Source: Phormidesmis priestleyi Ana
Lineage (GTDB): Bacteria; Cyanobacteriota; Cyanobacteriia; Phormidesmidales; Phormidesmidaceae
NCBI GenBank assembly: GCA_001314865.1
Contig: LJZR01000003.1
Span: 78,463 to 142,462 of the forward strand
Length of the DNA stretch: 64,000 nt
Reading direction: 5' to 3'
In this document: positions 571-29,821 of the stretch, piece by piece
Numbering within the stretch: position 1 is the stretch's first letter
Layout: each line of letters begins with the position of its first letter
The notes under the pieces: generated by a model
What the model saw: the letters and a program-made list of their open reading frames with translations, nothing else
Databases searched by the model: none
What the model was told of the DNA's origin: nothing
Translations under genes and position numbers: made by a program

Positions 571-3342
571 ATGATCGCGATTCAGCCAAAAACTCGTCAG
601 CTGCTCGGTGTTAACCAGCAGTCTTATCAGGCGCTCAAAGCCTCCATGAGCTTGAATTTGCGTCGTCAGCTGCTCATCGCCGTCTGTGACGATGTCAGAA
701 TGCAAAATCGGCTAGCAACTCAGCTCGAAGCCGATCTGGCGCAAGCTTTAGATCCTGCTTTTCCCATTTTAGAGGGCACCATTTGCCCTGCCGATACTGA
801 TCCGTCAGCTGATTTTCCGGGTCTCCAGCGACTGATGTTTGATCCTGAAGAGGGCAACTTGCCCCAACAGGTTGCACAGTGGGTCAGGCAAATAATGCTT
901 TCCCAGGGCTTGTCGGCGCAAGATGCGCTGCCTCAGTTGCAGGTTCTGGGCATTGAGCAAATGATCCACCAGCCTGCCATTACCCAAAACTACTTTTTGC
1001 GATCGCTCGAAAAAATTGAGGCGCTGCTCCCCCGGTTGAACACCAGCCTGTTGATATGGGTTCCTTGGCCTTGGCTACGGACTATTCAGCAATCTTCACC
1101 CACCTTTTGGAACTGGCGAAACGGCGTTTTTGAATTTGTCAGCGATCCAACGCCAACGGCCCCTCGTCAGGAATCAGTTCACGTAGAGTTTCCATTATTT
1201 AACGACAACTCAACGAATGCTCACCACAGCGATACTCAGAAACGCCTGTTTCCGACACCTATCCCGCCGCTTAACTCATCTGAGTCATCTGAGGGACTCT
1301 ACGGTGAAAGTGGAGAGAACGGCGGTGGAGAGAATGGTGGTGGAGAGAATGGCGAAAATGCTGTCGAGGTTCCCCCTACTGCCGTTCTGTTTAAAGCTCA
1401 ATCAGCAGCTCGCGAACTGATCAAAAAGCAGCCTCCCCCGGCACAGCCAATCGCTAATCTCGTGACATCTGGCAGAGCCGTCGAGAATTCCTCGCTTGAT
1501 GTCGAACTCCACACGCTGCTTTCTGAACAGTCGGCAAGTCCATCGGAAAGTCATCCAGAAAACCAGCTCGCCAGAAAGCTAGAAAGCCAGCCGGAAAGCC
1601 AGCCAGCCAGCCAGCTAGCTAGCCAGAAAGCCAGCCAGCCGGAAAGCCAGCCAGAAAGCCAGCCGACTCGGCAAACTATTGTACCTACCCAAAGAATTGT
1701 TGCTTCTCAGAACATCACTTCTTTAGGGGGATTGCAGTCAGTGGTGAGTCGGGTGGTGAGCCAGGAAGAGAATACTCTCCCTGAACTGACCGAGCTGCTC
1801 CATGACGAATCATCTGCCAATGCCCTTGTTGAAAAAGAGCTTTCTGAGCTGCATTGGGACGACTTTATTGATAGCTCAGTTTCTGACTCAGTCTCTATAT
1901 CAGCCACTGAGTCAGACTATGAGACAGAAAGCCTCGATTTTGACGCGGCTCGTGCTGAACTGCTGGAGTGGAACTCGGATGCTCCCCTGGATGATTCGCT
2001 TCAGGATAAGTCGAATGCTCAATCGAACCTTTTACTCGATCCTCAATTCGACGCTCAAGCGGATCAAGCTGAGGATCAATCCCATCCTGAACCAGAATCC
2101 AATGCTGAACCAGATGGTGAGCCTGGGCTTAAACCGGCGGCTGAAACGGAAGCTGAAAAGCGCACCCAGGCGGCCACTCATTTTGCCCTGGGGCTGAGCT
2201 ATCGCAATCGCATAGAGGCAGGTGAGCGCGGCTTAGAAGTGATTGAACCCGCTATTGCGGCTTATGAAAATGGGCTGAGTTGCCTGGGCGAGCCCCATTC
2301 AGACTGGGTGACTGGGCTCAATGACCTGGGTACGCTCTACTGGCTAAAAGCCCAGCAACAGCAGCCAGATCAGGCGATTGTCGCGATGAAGCGCAGTATT
2401 GAGCTCTATCAAGAGGCCATCACCAAAAGCGGTGTTGAACTACCAAATGGGCCATCGCTGGCGCTTCAACCGGGTGTAATTGGTCAGCTGTATAGCAACA
2501 TGGGCGCGGTTTATACCGTACTAGCAGCCTGTAATGATCCGCTCATCTATCTTCAGCAGGCTGTTGAAACCTACGAAAAAGCGTTGCCGATGGTTTCGCT
2601 AGCGCGCAGCCCTGGTGAGTACGCTACGCTACAAAATAGCCTGGGTTCAGTATATTGGAAGCTTTCTCATTACGATGCGGCAGCGGCCAACTTGCACCGG
2701 GCGATCGCTGCCTACAATGAGGCGCTGCTAGGCTACAAACCTGACCAAAAACCTTTGGAGTATGCCGCTGTTCAAAACAACCTGGGCATTACCTACTGGA
2801 GTTTGGCGAAGCATGAGCGCGCAGAATTTTTGTTGAAGCATGCGATCGCCTCCTATCGAGATGCGCTCAACTACCGTACTTCAGATGTAGACCCGGCAGG
2901 CTGTGCGATTTCTTACAACAATTTGGCCCTTGCCTACTGGGATCTCTCTAAACAAACGCATGCCGATATTGCTCAAAAGAGCCGGTATCAAAAAAACTCG
3001 ATTACCGCTTTCGAAGCCGCCCTCAATATCAGCAAGCTATCTGGCGTTCTCAACACTATGGATAGTGCTGCCATCTATCATTGCTTAGGCGATGTTCATG
3101 CGCAAATGCTTGAAACAGCCCCCTCCAAAGTAGAAGTTGCCGATAGCCTACAAAAGTCTTTGTACAGCTATATTCAGTCGCTCGATGGGTTATCCCCTGA
3201 GGCCGCTGCCTATCCGGGCCGATTCGCGGCAGTCATCGCCAATCTCAAACTCCATTATGAAAGGTTGGGTTTAGAGGGGCAGCAAGCAGCGCTCAATCAG
3301 ATTCCACCTACGCTATTGCCTCAGGTAATGCTGGCACTATAG
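571..3342 (+). CDS. Large tetratricopeptide-repeat protein with low-complexity linker
   Basis: A 923-residue protein of unknown specific role, probably a protein-protein scaffold. Residues 1 to about 190 form a globular domain of the type seen in cyanobacterial TPR and STAND-like proteins (LLIAVCDD near the start, later LLIWVPWPW and FWNWRNGVFEF), but no Walker A is visible. Residues 190-530 are an acidic, Ser/Gln/Glu-rich disordered linker containing DNA tandem repeats: GENGG-coding 15-bp units near 1318-1355 and Q-P-E-S-type repeats near 1540-1672. Residues about 535-905 contain several TPR-like helical hairpins with the N-LG-xYW pattern (NDLGTLYW, NSLGSVYW, NNLGITYW, NNLALAYW). No signal peptide or membrane segment is seen, so it is likely cytoplasmic. 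ATG at 571 is preceded by a GGGG purine run. Confidence 0.8.
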   Translation: MIAIQPKTRQLLGVNQQSYQALKASMSLNLRRQLLIAVCDDVRMQNRLATQLEADLAQALDPAFPILEGTICPADTDPSADFPGLQRLMFDPEEGNLPQQVAQWVRQIMLSQGLSAQDALPQLQVLGIEQMIHQPAITQNYFLRSLEKIEALLPRLNTSLLIWVPWPWLRTIQQSSPTFWNWRNGVFEFVSDPTPTAPRQESVHVEFPLFNDNSTNAHHSDTQKRLFPTPIPPLNSSESSEGLYGESGENGGGENGGGENGENAVEVPPTAVLFKAQSAARELIKKQPPPAQPIANLVTSGRAVENSSLDVELHTLLSEQSASPSESHPENQLARKLESQPESQPASQLASQKASQPESQPESQPTRQTIVPTQRIVASQNITSLGGLQSVVSRVVSQEENTLPELTELLHDESSANALVEKELSELHWDDFIDSSVSDSVSISATESDYETESLDFDAARAELLEWNSDAPLDDSLQDKSNAQSNLLLDPQFDAQADQAEDQSHPEPESNAEPDGEPGLKPAAETEAEKRTQAATHFALGLSYRNRIEAGERGLEVIEPAIAAYENGLSCLGEPHSDWVTGLNDLGTLYWLKAQQQQPDQAIVAMKRSIELYQEAITKSGVELPNGPSLALQPGVIGQLYSNMGAVYTVLAACNDPLIYLQQAVETYEKALPMVSLARSPGEYATLQNSLGSVYWKLSHYDAAAANLHRAIAAYNEALLGYKPDQKPLEYAAVQNNLGITYWSLAKHERAEFLLKHAIASYRDALNYRTSDVDPAGCAISYNNLALAYWDLSKQTHADIAQKSRYQKNSITAFEAALNISKLSGVLNTMDSAAIYHCLGDVHAQMLETAPSKVEVADSLQKSLYSYIQSLDGLSPEAAAYPGRFAAVIANLKLHYERLGLEGQQAALNQIPPTLLPQVMLAL
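1540..1672 (+). repeat. In-frame low-complexity repeat in the TPR protein linker
   Basis: Degenerate repeats built from CCAGCCGGAAAGC, CCAGCCAGC and CCAGAAAGC words code for runs such as ESQPESQ and SQPASQLASQ. All changes keep the reading frame, as expected for slippage within a disordered linker. A second set of three 15-bp units (GGAGAGAACGGCGGT type) lies at about 1317-1357. Confidence 0.75.
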
Positions 3343-3438
3343 GCGCATTTCTGCATAAATGCTTCCGATAGCATAGGGGCGCGTGCTCATCTCGCGTTAC
3401 TCTAAAAGAGCTGTTATCTGTAGCTCACGACTTTTGGA

Positions 3439-4332
3439 ATGCCCATTTTAATTGTTGCAGCGATTGTTATCGCCTTTTGTGCGATCGCCTTTGCCCTGCA
3501 AAACAATCAGCTAGTAGCGATCAACCTTTTGGTTTGGAACTATGAGGGATCGCTAGCGATTGTGCTGCTTTCTACGCTGGCCATTGGGGTTCTTATCGGC
3601 TTGCTGGTACTGCTGCCTGCGCTACTCAAACGGGGCTGGCGGATCTCGCGGGCCAAACGGCAAACAACTGTGCTAGAAGAACAAATCTCCCAGCGCGAGC
3701 ATCAGATTAACAATGAGGTCAGCAACGCTGAACGGCTGCGACAAAGTCATGAAAACCTTTTGCAAGCACTGAACCTAACTGATGCCAATACCGGGTTGCT
3801 AGATGCCAAGCTGCTCCCACAAACGCTCTCTGTGCTCATCAAGCAAATGAAGCTTCAGCCCGGAAACCCTCAGTTTGATTCGATTGGGCTCCTTGTGGTC
3901 GATGCTCGGCGCCAGCATCCTATTGGTGAGGTTGTAACGACTGCTCAGCAAAATGTTCAGCTTGATATCGCGATCGCCTCAGTCATTCGGCGCAGCGTTA
4001 CGCTCGATACCTGGCTGTACTGCGATAGCCAGGAGGACGCTGGGGCACAGTTTATGTGTGTGCTCACAGGCATGGATAAGGCTGGTCTCAGGCAATATGG
4101 TGAAACCCTCCGCTATGCCTTAACGGATGAGCCGCTGACGCTGACAGATGGGTCGATCGTGGCTGTAGATGTCAAAGTAGGGGGGGCATTGTGCGATCGC
4201 ACTCATCCAACTCATCAAGAAAAAATTATCATTAACAAGGCTTACCAAGCGCTCTTAGAAGCAGGTAAGCCTTCTTTAAATCCTATCAAAGGCAATCAGC
4301 CTATTAAGATCGTCCGCGTGACTGATCCCTAA
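3439..4332 (+). CDS. LapA-domain (DUF1049-like) membrane protein with GGDEF-like degenerate C-terminus
   Basis: A 297-residue protein. Two hydrophobic helices (about residues 1-22 and 36-62) flank the QNNQLVAINLLVW stretch characteristic of LapA/DUF1049 proteins; they are followed by a basic segment, a predicted coiled coil (about 70-112), and a C-terminal domain from about 115. That domain starts with TDANTGLLDAKLLPQTL and ends with KAYQALLEAGKPS; the two ends are spaced like a GGDEF (diguanylate cyclase) fold, but where the active-site GG(D/E)EF loop should be the sequence is DAGAQF (residues 200-205). It is therefore probably non-catalytic if the fold is right; that part is inference. It faces the convergent secG across a tandem repeat. 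Confidence 0.65.
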   Translation: MPILIVAAIVIAFCAIAFALQNNQLVAINLLVWNYEGSLAIVLLSTLAIGVLIGLLVLLPALLKRGWRISRAKRQTTVLEEQISQREHQINNEVSNAERLRQSHENLLQALNLTDANTGLLDAKLLPQTLSVLIKQMKLQPGNPQFDSIGLLVVDARRQHPIGEVVTTAQQNVQLDIAIASVIRRSVTLDTWLYCDSQEDAGAQFMCVLTGMDKAGLRQYGETLRYALTDEPLTLTDGSIVAVDVKVGGALCDRTHPTHQEKIIINKAYQALLEAGKPSLNPIKGNQPIKIVRVTDP

Positions 4333-23618: not shown

Positions 23619-23640
23619 CGCTGGGTCTCTCTATTGCTGA

Positions 23641-23728
23641 TTCTCTGGCGCTGATTCTCTAAATGTAAATTCTCTATTGCTGATTCTCTAAATGTAAATT
23701 CTCTAAATGTAAATTCTTATTCATTAAC
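23641..23728 (+). repeat. Mixed 14-bp repeats downstream of the Nudix gene
   Basis: ATTCTCTAAATGTAA-type units occur three times, interleaved with CTCTATTGCTG and GCGCTGATT words, starting about 20 bp after the Nudix stop. They fill most of the gap to the next gene. Confidence 0.8.
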
Positions 23729-23856: not shown

Positions 23857-25971
23857 GTGCGCGCTTTTAACCGTTTGAGCATTCAATCTAAGCTGATGAC
23901 GATGCTGCTTGCAGTGAGCATTAGCTCTATTTCAGTCATCGCCTATGAGGGTTATCGGAGTGGCCGCGCGGCAATTCAAGAGAGCGTTGTTAAGCAGTTG
24001 ATTGGGCTAAGAACATCAAAGGCCAATCAAATAGAGAGCTACTTTAATGACTTGAGAAGTGAGATGAAGGTGCTGGGTAAATCTTTAGAGACTGCCACCG
24101 CCATGAGAGATTTTGCCGCTGCCTATGGTGTGGTCTTAGGCGAGTCCAAATCTATTGATGGGGCTCAAGTCGGCAAGCTGCGCACATTTTACAAAGAAGA
24201 GTTTGCACCTAGATTCACTGAGAAAACGGGCGTAGCGATCAACTCAGATGCCTATTTGCCAGCCTCTATTTTGGCGCGCTACTTGCAAGTTGAATATATT
24301 GTTGATAATCCCAATCCGATTGGCGAAAAGAGCAAGCTAGAGACTGTCGAAGATGGATCTAAGTATAGCCAGCTGCATCAGCGGTATCATCCTATCTTTA
24401 AAGAAATTGTTGATGAGTTTGGCTATTACGATCTTTTTTTGATCGATAACGGCGGCAATATTGTTTACTCGGTTGCCAAAGAAGTCGATTTTGCCACAAG
24501 TTTACTGCTAGGGCCTTTTGCTCAGTCTAATTTGGCTCAGGTTTACAAAGATGCGCAAAAGCAAAACAGTGGCTATGTTGCCATCTCTGACTTTGATTTT
24601 TATGCGCCATCCTATGGCAGCCCGTCGGCCTTTATGGCAACGCCGATTTATCAAGGCACCGATTTGATTGGCGTCATGGCTATTCAGCTGCCTGTTGATA
24701 AAATCGCAGGGGTGATGACCAACAATCAAAATTGGGAGCAGGATGGTTTAGGCAAGAGTGGTGAAACCTTTTTGGTTGGCGCTGACGATACGCCCCGGAT
24801 GCGCTCCGATTCACGGCTGCTACTGCAACAGCCTGAAGAATACTTTGCTGCGCTAGAGCAAGGCCAAGTGAGTCCTGATATATTAGAGCGGATTAAGCGG
24901 CTGAATACTGCTGTGCTGAATCAACCAGCGCAAAGCGATGCGATCAAAAAGGCGATCGCTGGTCAAACCGGGTGGGAGACTTCAACCAACTATCTGGGCA
25001 ATCCAGTTCTTAGCGCCTACGCGCCTTTAAACATCCGAGGCGTAGACTGGGTAATTGTTTCGGAAATGGACAGAGCTGAAATTTTTCAGCCGATTACCAA
25101 CTTTGCACAACGAGTATTAATCGCTGCTTCTGGACTGGTGTTTCTCATTACGCTAGCCTCGCTATGGCTCGCGAAGTCCTTCTTAAAGCCGGTGAACTTA
25201 TTAAGTGACGGCTTTAGCCGCTTAGCGCAAGGCCACAAAGATGTTTCGGTAGAGATACTCGCCGAAGACGAACTAGGGGAACTCGGCAAGTCGTTTAACC
25301 ATATGGTGAAAAAGAATCGCAAAACGAGTGAGCTGGTGCTGAAAAAAGGGCAAGAGACCGAAGCGCTGCTGCTCAATATGTTTCCGTCGTCTGTGGCTAA
25401 CCGGCTTAAAAAGGGATCGACCTTAATCGCCGATGAGGCTGAAAGTGTGACGGTGATGTTTGCTAACGTGCTGAACTTTCAACAGCTCACCGAATCTCTT
25501 AAGCCCAAAAAAGCGATTGAGATTTTAAACGAGATTGTTAAAGCACTAGACGAAGCGACCGAGACCCATGGGGTCGAAAAAATTAAAACGACAGGTAGTG
25601 AGTACTTAGCGGTTAGCGGTCTGTCGGTGGCTAGGTTAGACCATACCCAGCGAATTATTGATTTTGCGGTAGAAGCTATTCGCGTTGTCAATCAGGTGAG
25701 TCGCGAATGGGATGTGGATCTCAAAATGAAGGTGGGCGTCCATGATGGCGGCATCATGGCTGGTACGGTGGGCTCACAGCGGCTGATTTATGATATTTGG
25801 GGCGATACCGTGGTAAAAGCGCACTATGTGCAGTCGGCGGCGGCGCCCAATAGCATCTATGTCACTGAGTCTGTCGTTAATAGCTTGGTTGATATTTATG
25901 AGTTTGAACCGGTTGGCGAAGTTATGGCGCGGGGCGGTGAGCCGCTGTCAATTTTTCGCGTCAAAATTTAG
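23857..25971 (+). CDS. Membrane sensor with a degenerate class III adenylate/guanylate cyclase domain
   Basis: A 704-residue protein: one membrane helix (about 12-28), a large extracytoplasmic sensor region (about 40-410, dCache-like), a second helix near 420-440, a HAMP domain (about 440-490), a linker, then a cyclase-homology domain (about 505-704). The domain keeps the fold landmarks VTVMFA, MKVGVHDGGIMAGTVGSQRLIYDIWGDT but lacks the catalytic set: the first metal Asp is Asn537 (FAN instead of FAD), the second is Ser581/Glu582 (GSEY instead of GDAY), and the transition-state Asn and Arg are Val653 and Tyr657. A lone dimer therefore lacks a complete active site. Start GTG 23857 with GAGG upstream. 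It is followed 34 bp later by the MscS-cNMP gene. Confidence 0.85.
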   Translation: MRAFNRLSIQSKLMTMLLAVSISSISVIAYEGYRSGRAAIQESVVKQLIGLRTSKANQIESYFNDLRSEMKVLGKSLETATAMRDFAAAYGVVLGESKSIDGAQVGKLRTFYKEEFAPRFTEKTGVAINSDAYLPASILARYLQVEYIVDNPNPIGEKSKLETVEDGSKYSQLHQRYHPIFKEIVDEFGYYDLFLIDNGGNIVYSVAKEVDFATSLLLGPFAQSNLAQVYKDAQKQNSGYVAISDFDFYAPSYGSPSAFMATPIYQGTDLIGVMAIQLPVDKIAGVMTNNQNWEQDGLGKSGETFLVGADDTPRMRSDSRLLLQQPEEYFAALEQGQVSPDILERIKRLNTAVLNQPAQSDAIKKAIAGQTGWETSTNYLGNPVLSAYAPLNIRGVDWVIVSEMDRAEIFQPITNFAQRVLIAASGLVFLITLASLWLAKSFLKPVNLLSDGFSRLAQGHKDVSVEILAEDELGELGKSFNHMVKKNRKTSELVLKKGQETEALLLNMFPSSVANRLKKGSTLIADEAESVTVMFANVLNFQQLTESLKPKKAIEILNEIVKALDEATETHGVEKIKTTGSEYLAVSGLSVARLDHTQRIIDFAVEAIRVVNQVSREWDVDLKMKVGVHDGGIMAGTVGSQRLIYDIWGDTVVKAHYVQSAAAPNSIYVTESVVNSLVDIYEFEPVGEVMARGGEPLSIFRVKI

Positions 25972-26005
25972 CCGAAGCTCAGGCAGTTGTTAAGGCCAAT
26001 ATCTT

Positions 26006-27484
26006 ATGAGCATATCTTTGTCAGAACAATGGCTGCTGTGGGGCTTGGGTATGATGGTGGGTTTTCCCTTGGTGATGGTGGCTTTGGGAGAGCTGGTGTT
26101 GCAGTTGGACAAGCGCCATCACCCCATGGTGAAGGTGGCACGGGAGGTTCGCAATTGGGTGATGCCGACAGCGGCTTTGTTCTTTTTGCTGACGCGCGTT
26201 TTAAGAATTGATGATTCGCTTGCTGGGATTAAGCTGGTGGAAACGCTGGCCTGGATGTCTTTAATTGCGGCGGCGCTGTCGTTGGTGAATGTGCTGCTGT
26301 TTACCGGTGCTAAAAAAGATTCTTGGCAGGCTGAAATGCCTAAGCTATTCCGCGATTTGGTGCGCACTTTTTTGATTGCGGTGGGGGGTGCTATTGTTCT
26401 TTCTCAAGTATTTGAGCAAGATTTGGGTGGCTTAATTACGGCGCTGGGTGTGGGCTCGGTGGTGATTGGTTTGGCCCTGCAAGATACGCTGGGGAACTTG
26501 TTTTCGGGGGTTGCTTTGTTGTTTGAGCGGCCCTTTCAGGTAGGCGATTGGCTAGAGGTTGATGGTTGTACAGGCAAAGTTGTTGAGGTGAACTGGCGCT
26601 CGGTGCATATTATGACGCGCGAGCTAGAGATGCTGATTGTGCCTAATTCAGTACTTTCTCAGGCGGTAATTCGCAACTACAACCGGCCTGAGGCTCAGCA
26701 TGTGGAGCCGGTAGATATTGGGTTTTCTTACAATGATGCGCCGAATACGGTGAAACGAGTGATGCGTGAAGCTGCGCTTGACACGCCGGGTGTGCTGAGC
26801 CATCCGGCGCCGGTGGTGCAGACGATTTCGTATGATGATTCTTCAATTTCCTATCGGGTGCGGTTGTTTTTGGCTGACTACAGCCAGGTTCCGAAGATTC
26901 GCGATGAGTTTGTCACGCGCATTTGGTACACGGCAAGGCGAAATGGTCTTTCGATTCCGTTCCCTATTCGCGATGTGTTTCATCATCAGGTGCCTAGAGT
27001 AAAGGGCGATGAGACGTTGCAGCGGCTAGCGAACTATATGAAGTCGCTGCCGAGTTTAGCGATGGTGGCTGATGATGTGCTTGAGGAGATGGCGAGTCAG
27101 GTGACGCTGGGTCACTATGGACGAGGGGAGTCGGCAATTTTTCAGGGACAAAGTAATGTGAAGCTGCATTTTGTGCTGGCAGGGAGTGCGATCGCTACCA
27201 CTCAAGACAGCATTGGCCGTGAGCACAAGATTGCTGAAATGACCCGAGGCGATTTTTTTGGCTACTCAGCGCTGCTGGCCAATGAGCCGAGCCCGATGAC
27301 AGTAACGGCCTCAGAAGACTTAGAAGTGCTTGTGCTAGAAATTGACGGTGTTCAAAAAATGCTGAACAAAACGCCCCGATTCTCTCAGCAGCTCGGCAGT
27401 GTCATCGCTGCTCGGCAGCAAAAGCTCAAATCTATTAAACTCGACCCTCAAAGAAACGGCTCCTTACTTTCCACCTCAGACTAG
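26006..27484 (+). CDS. MscS-type mechanosensitive channel with a C-terminal cNMP-binding-like domain
   Basis: A 492-residue inner-membrane protein. Several membrane helices occupy residues about 1-135; the MscS pore-lining and beta-domain region follows (GSVVIGLALQDTLGNLFSGVALLFERPFQVGDWLEV), then a cyclic-nucleotide-binding-like domain at about 345-480. In the phosphate-binding cassette the canonical FGE...PR is FGYSALLANEPSPM (residues 418-431), so the Glu that holds the ribose and the Arg that holds the phosphate are both missing (Tyr420, Ser429). Binding of cAMP or cGMP is doubtful. Probably an osmotic-stress channel in an operon with the upstream degenerate cyclase sensor. Confidence 0.88.
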   Translation: MSISLSEQWLLWGLGMMVGFPLVMVALGELVLQLDKRHHPMVKVAREVRNWVMPTAALFFLLTRVLRIDDSLAGIKLVETLAWMSLIAAALSLVNVLLFTGAKKDSWQAEMPKLFRDLVRTFLIAVGGAIVLSQVFEQDLGGLITALGVGSVVIGLALQDTLGNLFSGVALLFERPFQVGDWLEVDGCTGKVVEVNWRSVHIMTRELEMLIVPNSVLSQAVIRNYNRPEAQHVEPVDIGFSYNDAPNTVKRVMREAALDTPGVLSHPAPVVQTISYDDSSISYRVRLFLADYSQVPKIRDEFVTRIWYTARRNGLSIPFPIRDVFHHQVPRVKGDETLQRLANYMKSLPSLAMVADDVLEEMASQVTLGHYGRGESAIFQGQSNVKLHFVLAGSAIATTQDSIGREHKIAEMTRGDFFGYSALLANEPSPMTVTASEDLEVLVLEIDGVQKMLNKTPRFSQQLGSVIAARQQKLKSIKLDPQRNGSLLSTSD

Positions 27485-29441: not shown

Positions 29442-29789
29442 CTACCAGCCTTTCTCTGACTGATCTTGAACATAGGCAGCGACATCCTCAATTTGAGCAT
29501 CGGTGAGTCGGCCCTGGAAAGAAGGCATCGCCCCTTTGCCGTTGGTAACTTGATAGACGATGGCTGTAGTCGCGTGCTCTGTGCCATAGCCCTCTAGGTA
29601 TTGCTCTAACGCATCTTGCTTAAGCGTTTTGTTAGACATCACAACGTTGCCACCGCCAACATGACAGGCCGCACAGCTTGCCGAAAATACCTGTGCGCCT
29701 TGGCCTAAGTCGGCAGCGATCGCAGGTGGAATCAGCGGCAGCAAAATTCCGATTACAACTGCAAGAATGGTGGAAAATAAGGCTTTCAT
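29442..29789 (-). CDS. petJ: Cytochrome c6 (soluble c-type, lumenal)
   Basis: Carries electrons from cytochrome b6f to photosystem I or cytochrome oxidase in the thylakoid lumen. 115 residues from ATG 29789: signal peptide (MKALFSTILAVVIGILLPLIPPAIA), mature start ADLGQGAQVF, haem site CAACH (residues 39-43), axial Met in GAMPSF, and the C-terminal VAAYVQDQSEKGW. The mature part is about 88 residues, typical. In many cyanobacteria petJ is expressed when copper is scarce, as alternative to plastocyanin. Upstream TTG 29795 is less likely as start. Confidence 0.95.
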   Translation of the reverse strand: MKALFSTILAVVIGILLPLIPPAIAADLGQGAQVFSASCAACHVGGGNVVMSNKTLKQDALEQYLEGYGTEHATTAIVYQVTNGKGAMPSFQGRLTDAQIEDVAAYVQDQSEKGW

Positions 29790-29821
29790 TCGCAAAATAC
29801 TCTCTCAAAACAACAGACACG

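Follow-up and report, generated by a model that had tools for sequence, protein, structure and literature searches.

Bacterial cyclic nucleotide-gated (bCNG) MscS channels are known, reportedly, from the work of Caldwell et al. in 2010 and Malcolm et al. in 2012. Amongst pseudoenzymes, the kinase and phosphatase examples are the best known, and bacterial pseudo-cyclases that are conserved and can be assigned a partner have, to our knowledge, hardly been described. Here we analyse a two-gene locus within 64,000 nucleotides of the cyanobacterium Phormidesmis priestleyi Ana (contig LJZR01000003.1, positions 78,463 to 142,462 of the forward strand; this whole stretch is referred to as the window): a gene for a membrane sensor with a degenerate class III cyclase domain is followed, 34 bp downstream, by a gene for an MscS-type channel with a degenerate cyclic nucleotide-binding (CNB) domain. 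On the comparative evidence we lean, if only modestly, towards a two-gene receptor-channel module that would have given up cyclic nucleotides.

The window channel is like the bCNG channels in combining an MscS pore with a C-terminal CNB domain; however, its clade lacks the arginine of the phosphate-binding cassette (PBC) and exhibits Ser-x-Val/Ile instead, with the window channel also lacking the Glu, and unlike bCNG channels the clade is gene-linked to a pseudo-cyclase bearing a dCache domain. The sensor shares with class III adenylyl cyclases (Rv1625c, 5o5k and mammalian AC9) the fold, the base-selecting Lys/Asp, the YDIWGDT motif and the HAMP/S-helix input, whilst both metal-binding Asp residues and both transition-state residues are absent in the window. 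The pseudo-active-site domains of mammalian adenylyl cyclases and soluble guanylate cyclase are likewise cyclase folds with an incomplete site that act through the dimer interface, but there the partner supplies the missing residues, and no partner of the sensor's subtype was seen in the window's genome. In case of the channel, a comparison is offered by the regulatory subunits of trypanosomatid protein kinase A (PKA), from which the PBC Arg has gone and whose ligands, bound with nanomolar affinity, are purine nucleosides (PMC10959531). As in most of the channel family, a polar residue replaces this Arg (Ser429 in the window) and the first Glu is kept; the channel family differs in having no Glu at the Ala202 position (Ala422) and a Val one position on, and we claim no relation by descent. 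No description of the sensor-channel pair was found in the open-access literature searched.

The window's genome is a draft of 5.93 Mb (98.8% complete) from the genus to which Cf. Phormidesmis sp. LEGE 11477 also belongs, and all features described here lie on the + strand unless stated otherwise. The sensor gene (23857..25971; GTG start, 704 aa) encodes a first transmembrane (TM) helix, a periplasmic dCache domain, a second TM helix, a HAMP domain, an S-helix linker and the class III pseudo-cyclase. Pfam matches cover part of the dCache ligand domain (residues 189-402, 24421..25062; dCache_1 at 40.9 bits, under the 45-bit cut-off), the HAMP domain (residues 437-486, 25165..25314) and the cyclase-fold domain (residues 526-696, 25432..25944; Guanylate_cyc, PF00211, E 7.5e-41), and in the AlphaFold2 (AF2) model (mean pLDDT 87.9) Foldseek superimposed the last of these on the solved bacterial adenylyl cyclase 5o5k at 1.8 Å with a TM-score of 0.92 by target. 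Across 77 sensors, most of the invariant residues (Y112, Y147, Y170, Y204, K208, D211, D245, G308, D310, R316, S317 and E408) sit in the dCache domain, a concentration that would be expected if the same ligand were sensed across phyla. The channel gene (26006..27484; 492 aa) encodes extra N-terminal TM helices, the MscS pore, beta and C-terminal domains and the C-terminal CNB-fold domain (residues 370-455, 27113..27370); Pfam matched MS_channel and cNMP_binding (E 1.1e-13), and the AF2 model (mean pLDDT 86.7) matched MscS/MscK/YnaI structures in Foldseek. The models were built from alignments of 77 (sensor) and 76 (channel) relatives. Just 5' of the sensor gene, short imperfect direct repeats (attctctaaatgtaa / gctgattctct) occur at 23640-23720.

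Alignment with AC9 puts Asn537 (25465..25467) at the first metal Asp (FADIVGF to FANVLNF), Ser581 (25597..25599) at the second (TLGDCY to TTGSEY), and Val653 (25813..25815) and Tyr657 (25825..25827) at the transition-state Asn and Arg (IWGDTVNIASR to IWGDTVVKAHY); the cyclases of related genomes, as a second and independent alignment, gave the same placement of all four positions. The sequence-only reading had placed the catalytic residues in this way and had concluded that all four are lost, and both alignments agree with it; for the second metal site it had named Ser581/Glu582, of which Ser581 is the metal position, whereas Glu582 is merely its neighbour. Absent from that reading were the base-selecting Lys577 (25585..25587) and Asp646 (25792..25794), both retained in the window and equivalent to Lys296 and Asp365 of Rv1625c (PMC4174876). 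The window sensor thus has the homology, the fold and the base-selecting pair of a class III cyclase, and lacks its metal and transition-state residues. Since three congeneric genomes, with genes 66-76% identical, carry the same kind of changes, these are not a sequencing accident: with a four-letter code for the two metal positions and the transition-state Asn/Arg positions, their sensors read NSVH, NSIH and NSVY, and their channels have Tyr420.

Counted over 104 adjacent sensor-channel pairs, at least one of the four catalytic residues is absent in 98, and all four (DDNR) are kept in six, namely five Nostoc-like pairs (L102, L106, L239, L241 and L242) and one from Saprospiraceae (L127). Lys577 and Asp646 are both retained in 71/104 sensors and stand together with both metal Asp residues in 40/104; both the metal pair and the base-selecting pair are lost in 21/104. 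Gly588 and Gly649 are invariant in all 104 cyclase domains, Trp648 is found in 97 and Cys587, a mark of the sensor family, in 93. Upstream of the channel in Limnofasciculus baicalensis (L105:3-5860) there are three tandem class III cyclase genes, the nearest of which is degenerate (DDSA); the Pseudanabaena-like sensors include a DDNA version.

In the CNB domain, comparison of the window sequence FFGYSALLANEPSPMTV with the E. coli CRP reference FIGELGLFEEGQERSAW places Tyr420 (27263..27265) at the ribose-binding Glu and Ser429 at the Arg, with an identical register obtained from the Pfam match, from 37 Arg-type channels and from the genome's own second MscS-CNB protein. The CRP and family alignments therefore bear out the earlier claim that the canonical Glu and Arg are missing; the channel has the bCNG architecture of MscS core and C-terminal CNB fold without the PBC Glu and Arg. 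Amongst 156 distinct channels, the 37 of the Arg-type have R429 and A431 throughout (37/37 each), whilst the 119 channels without the Arg have S429 in 114 and V/I/F/M/L at position 431 in 108, a family signature (S-x-[VIFM] replacing R-[ST]-A) seen in the window as Ser429-Pro430-Met431 (27290..27298). In the Arg-less channels Glu420 is retained in 105/119 and Arg470, in the last helix, in 116/119; position 422, Ala in the window, is A/T/S/V across the family. Because S429 and a hydrophobic residue at 431 are conserved as a positive signature, the Arg-less pocket appears to be replaced rather than randomly decayed: the CNB domain evidently keeps its fold, with the phosphate pocket rewritten (Arg429 to Ser, Ala431 to Val/Ile) clade-wide. 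As the residues that define catalysis and ligand binding proved to be absent, the functional names "class III cyclase" and "bCNG" should not be applied to the pair, although by fold the proteins belong with these families, and in the window neither protein would be expected to perform the chemistry of cyclic nucleotide (cNMP) synthesis or sensing.

The same pair, which the sequence-only reading had proposed to look for in other genomes, is not a local oddity, as it was found in 69 of 390 cyanobacterial genomes and in four other phyla. Of the 390 genomes, all of the window's class and each at least 90% complete, 71 contain the sensor and 72 the Arg-less channel: both genes occur in 69, the channel only in 3, the sensor only in 2 and neither in 316 (Fisher p=2.5e-70, n=390, a value that overstates independence because the genomes are related). 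Hence 69/74 genomes with either partner carry both, with the genes mostly adjacent, and the genomes with the pair span more than 10 families. Of the five exceptions, three (G011, G118 and G006) are located where a contig ends or is broken, one has a sensor fragment (G061) and one a sensor-chemoreceptor fusion (G245); locally sensorless channels, checked in six genomes plus G241, G389 and G317, all had a full or interrupted sensor elsewhere. Within the window's order, full-length sensors share their genomes with full-length channels of the pair, mostly as direct neighbours, and named cyanobacterial loci with the pair come from Xenococcaceae, Pseudanabaenaceae, Nostocaceae, Cyanobium and others. 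Outside the cyanobacteria, the pair was found in Bacteroidota (Saprospiraceae and another Bacteroidetes genome), Chloroflexota, Ignavibacteriota and Verrucomicrobiota. In most pairs the genes are close or overlapping, with a gap of -1 in ten, although open reading frame (ORF) starts were set mechanically and some overlaps are hence uncertain; the gene order is reversed in a few pairs and divergent in one (L133). No clear third partner emerged when the neighbours of 104 pairs were clustered, the largest clusters resembling spurious antisense ORFs or common genes.

Several loci show the sensor in altered form. In the chemoreceptor fusion (L269:3794-6238, G245), the same dCache-HAMP sensor family has a methyl-accepting chemotaxis domain as its output and lies in a cluster of chemotaxis genes, which indicates that the sensor half is modular. 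In G389 (L211, ~2564-3659), about 1.1 kb, possibly a mobile element, interrupts the sensor within the cyclase domain, the flanking pieces still being alignable, and at L224 (G256:C182:3916-5289) the channel is followed by another copy of the sensor, truncated after residue 461 (in a frame of 469 aa) and thus lacking the HAMP end and the cyclase domain.

The order in which the two halves changed can be approached through the neighbours of the channels, with a cyclase counted only if within 500 bp. Channels beside a degenerate cyclase comprise 98 without the CNB Arg and 0 with it, a contrast that ignores kinship and is basically one clade against the rest; beside an intact (DDNR) cyclase there are 8 channels with the Arg, all next to class IIIb-type cyclases, and 6 without, and channels without a cyclase neighbour comprise 29 with the Arg and 15 without. 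We rejected the Arg loss as independent statistical evidence, given that it is essentially one event and the Arg-type/Ser-type contrast a clade difference. The CNB Arg state changed 2 times on the channel tree, and the step from Arg to Ser, joined by that from Ala431 to Val/Ile, looks to be essentially one old change; on a tree of 101 pairs, the four cyclase positions changed 11, 9, 9 and 8 times. Since the altered cassette is common to every paired channel, whereas DDNR persists in two clades far apart, parsimony suggests that the receiver changed first and the cyclase later, subject to an uncertain root. The proposal that both ends of the pair have lost the chemistry together is therefore to be divided: the loss at both ends holds family-wide, because all 98 channels beside a degenerate cyclase are without the CNB Arg, but it did not occur in one step.

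Ordinary couples are available for comparison. In Gemmatimonadetes (L140, L143 and L144) and Synechococcus-like genomes (L257 and L259-L262), the gene for a CHASE2 or other intact class IIIb cyclase likewise neighbours an MscS-CNB gene, here of the Arg-type; these couples differ from the window's pair in having the four catalytic residues and the Glu/Arg of the CNB domain intact, in their other sensor domain where checked (L140), and in the downstream position of the cyclase in the Synechococcus-like cases. They look like the ordinary couple of cyclase and channel and may serve as a natural control. One Synechococcus-like genome (G167) carries both modules, a degenerate pair at L217 (DDKS, CNB Ser) and an intact pair at L259 (DDNR downstream, CNB Arg). 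The window's own genome also has a second MscS-CNB gene elsewhere (L276), in which the cassette FVGEFSLMLGVPRTVTI is intact and whose 4.1-kb locus contains no cyclase, a point in favour of the module reading.

Selection and coevolution were examined across the pairs. The ratio of non-synonymous to synonymous substitution rates (dN/dS) of the cyclase domain is 0.016-0.13 in 12/13 close pairs with usable dS and 0.167 in the thirteenth, which lies in the range of the dCache domain (0.022-0.178), is similar to that of the CNB domain (0.024-0.203) and is somewhat above that of the MscS core (0.009-0.084); the cyclase domain keeps its fold and is under purifying selection. Sensor and channel trees correlate with a mirror-tree r of 0.96, and for paralogous pairs within nine genomes the own partner fitted better than the swapped one in 22/22 comparisons. 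A single ORF of 906 aa from the Xenococcaceae cyanobacterium MO_234.B1 (L090:689-3406) joins the TM-dCache-TM-HAMP part of the sensor (residues 1 to ~488) to channel residues 65-489, lacking both the cyclase domain and the ~64 residues (first helix) with which the channel begins, and is either a Rosetta-stone fusion or an assembly error.

Sensor and channel form one conserved unit that is inherited together. Direct coupling is favoured because of the strong linkage, the mirror-tree correlation, the consistent own-partner preference and the fused gene: the sensor most likely works the channel without cNMP, by direct contact, a coupling that we infer. The ancestor would have been an ordinary couple of a receptor cyclase making cNMP and a cNMP-gated MscS channel; once the channel pocket had changed, the cyclase chemistry would have been free to erode lineage by lineage. 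In the present-day pair, a ligand on the periplasmic dCache domain would move TM2/HAMP and the S-helix, which would rearrange the pseudo-cyclase dimer; as a protein-protein transmitter, this dimer would contact the MscS-type heptamer, either at its CNB ring or at the cage above that ring, and so bias the channel open or closed. The broader proposition, on which we are evenly divided, is that of a widespread class of bacterial receptors whose pseudo-cyclase gates an MscS-type channel directly via a pseudo-CNB domain, the ligand site having changed before the chemistry of the maker eroded.

A number of observations weigh against contact-based gating. Co-occurrence and coevolution attest a functional link and are not proof of touching, and some Ser-type channels lie apart from their own sensor gene. 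The fusion comes from a single contig in a single metagenome-assembled genome. When mutual information between the two proteins was computed with 66 effective sequences, cyclase-CNB pairs made up 56 of the top 300 where 24 were expected, but the enrichment of cyclase-TM pairs was as high and the hub columns follow clade splits, and this analysis was not used as support. Some family members may still make or bind nucleotide, since the four catalytic residues all persist in six pairs, and 40/104 sensors have both metal Asp residues with Lys577 and Asp646; given the intact pairs, the sensor family may not be uniformly inactive.

The main rival, which we hold to be rather unlikely, is a different small ligand: the remodelled CNB domain would bind a compound other than cNMP, for example a nucleoside, which the cyclase-like domain makes, binds or releases, so that the link is diffusible. 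The conserved replacing residues (S429 in 114/119, hydrophobic 431), the retention of Glu (105/119) and Arg470 (116/119), the base-selecting pair kept in 71/104 sensors and the trypanosomatid PKA precedent of a nucleoside-binding CNB domain without the PBC Arg (PMC10959531) would all fit such a ligand. However, the Ala202 to Glu change of trypanosomes is absent (A/T/S/V at 422), with the bulky residue at another position, and the Glu itself is Tyr in the window's genus. Each of the 13 losses of Glu420 stands beside a cyclase that is itself short of a metal Asp, which would also suit this explanation; this link (13/13, naive p=0.0005) was dropped, as it gave P=0.14 with branch lengths and p 0.25 with independent pairs.

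Less probable still is a variant of direct contact in which the cyclase-like domain would have ceased to cyclise and would instead bind ATP, whether metal is present or not, so as to report the energy state or lock the dimer in the manner of pseudokinases. The intact fold and the same 71/104 sensors with Lys577 and Asp646, including the window's, would be in keeping with ATP binding, as would the 40/104 with both metal Asp residues in addition; on the other side, 21/104 have lost both pairs and the window sensor has neither metal ligand.

That canonical cyclic AMP (cAMP) signalling survives, through a partner cyclase elsewhere or because the residues were misplaced and cNMP is made and read by the couple after all, we consider very improbable. 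The window's genome encodes five other class III cyclases, and as four of them have apparently complete catalytic residues, cAMP is probably present in the cell. All five, however, belong to another subtype without the YDxWGD-type Asp motif, and the heterodimer with an active cyclase suggested by the sequence-only reading was not upheld: no partner of the sensor's subtype was found when the window's genome was searched for one, with one match each at E<=1e-30, and so no second cyclase close to the sensor's type, in G000 (the window's genome), G041, G058 and G059. The agreement of the two alignments and the absence of the CNB Arg clade-wide, and of the Glu too in the window, further speak against it. 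Drift without function, with the genes paired by common ancestry only, could account for the repeated loss of catalytic residues and a few broken copies (interrupted in G389, fragmentary in G061), but is barely credible and was rejected for the family by the selection data: dN/dS lies mostly at 0.02-0.13, the reading frames are intact in several phyla, residues of the dCache domain as well as Gly588 and Gly649 are invariant, and the two genes are gained and lost jointly. Elsewhere in the window, 29442-29795 (- strand) encodes a small cytochrome c-like protein with a CAACH c-type haem motif that is unrelated to the pair.

The maker-like and receiver-like halves stand together in ~18% of the sampled cyanobacterial genomes, in which automatic annotation as adenylate cyclase and cyclic-nucleotide-gated channel would mislead counts of cyanobacterial cAMP enzymes. 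The pair opens two questions to direct experiment, namely whether a channel can be gated by its CNB domain when no cyclic nucleotide is involved, and whether the role of a cyclase fold can be that of a purely mechanical transmitter; natural controls exist in the intact couples of other lineages and the intact MscS-CNB protein of the window's own genome. If contact-based gating is true, a second-messenger couple would have been converted into a contact-based receptor-channel complex.

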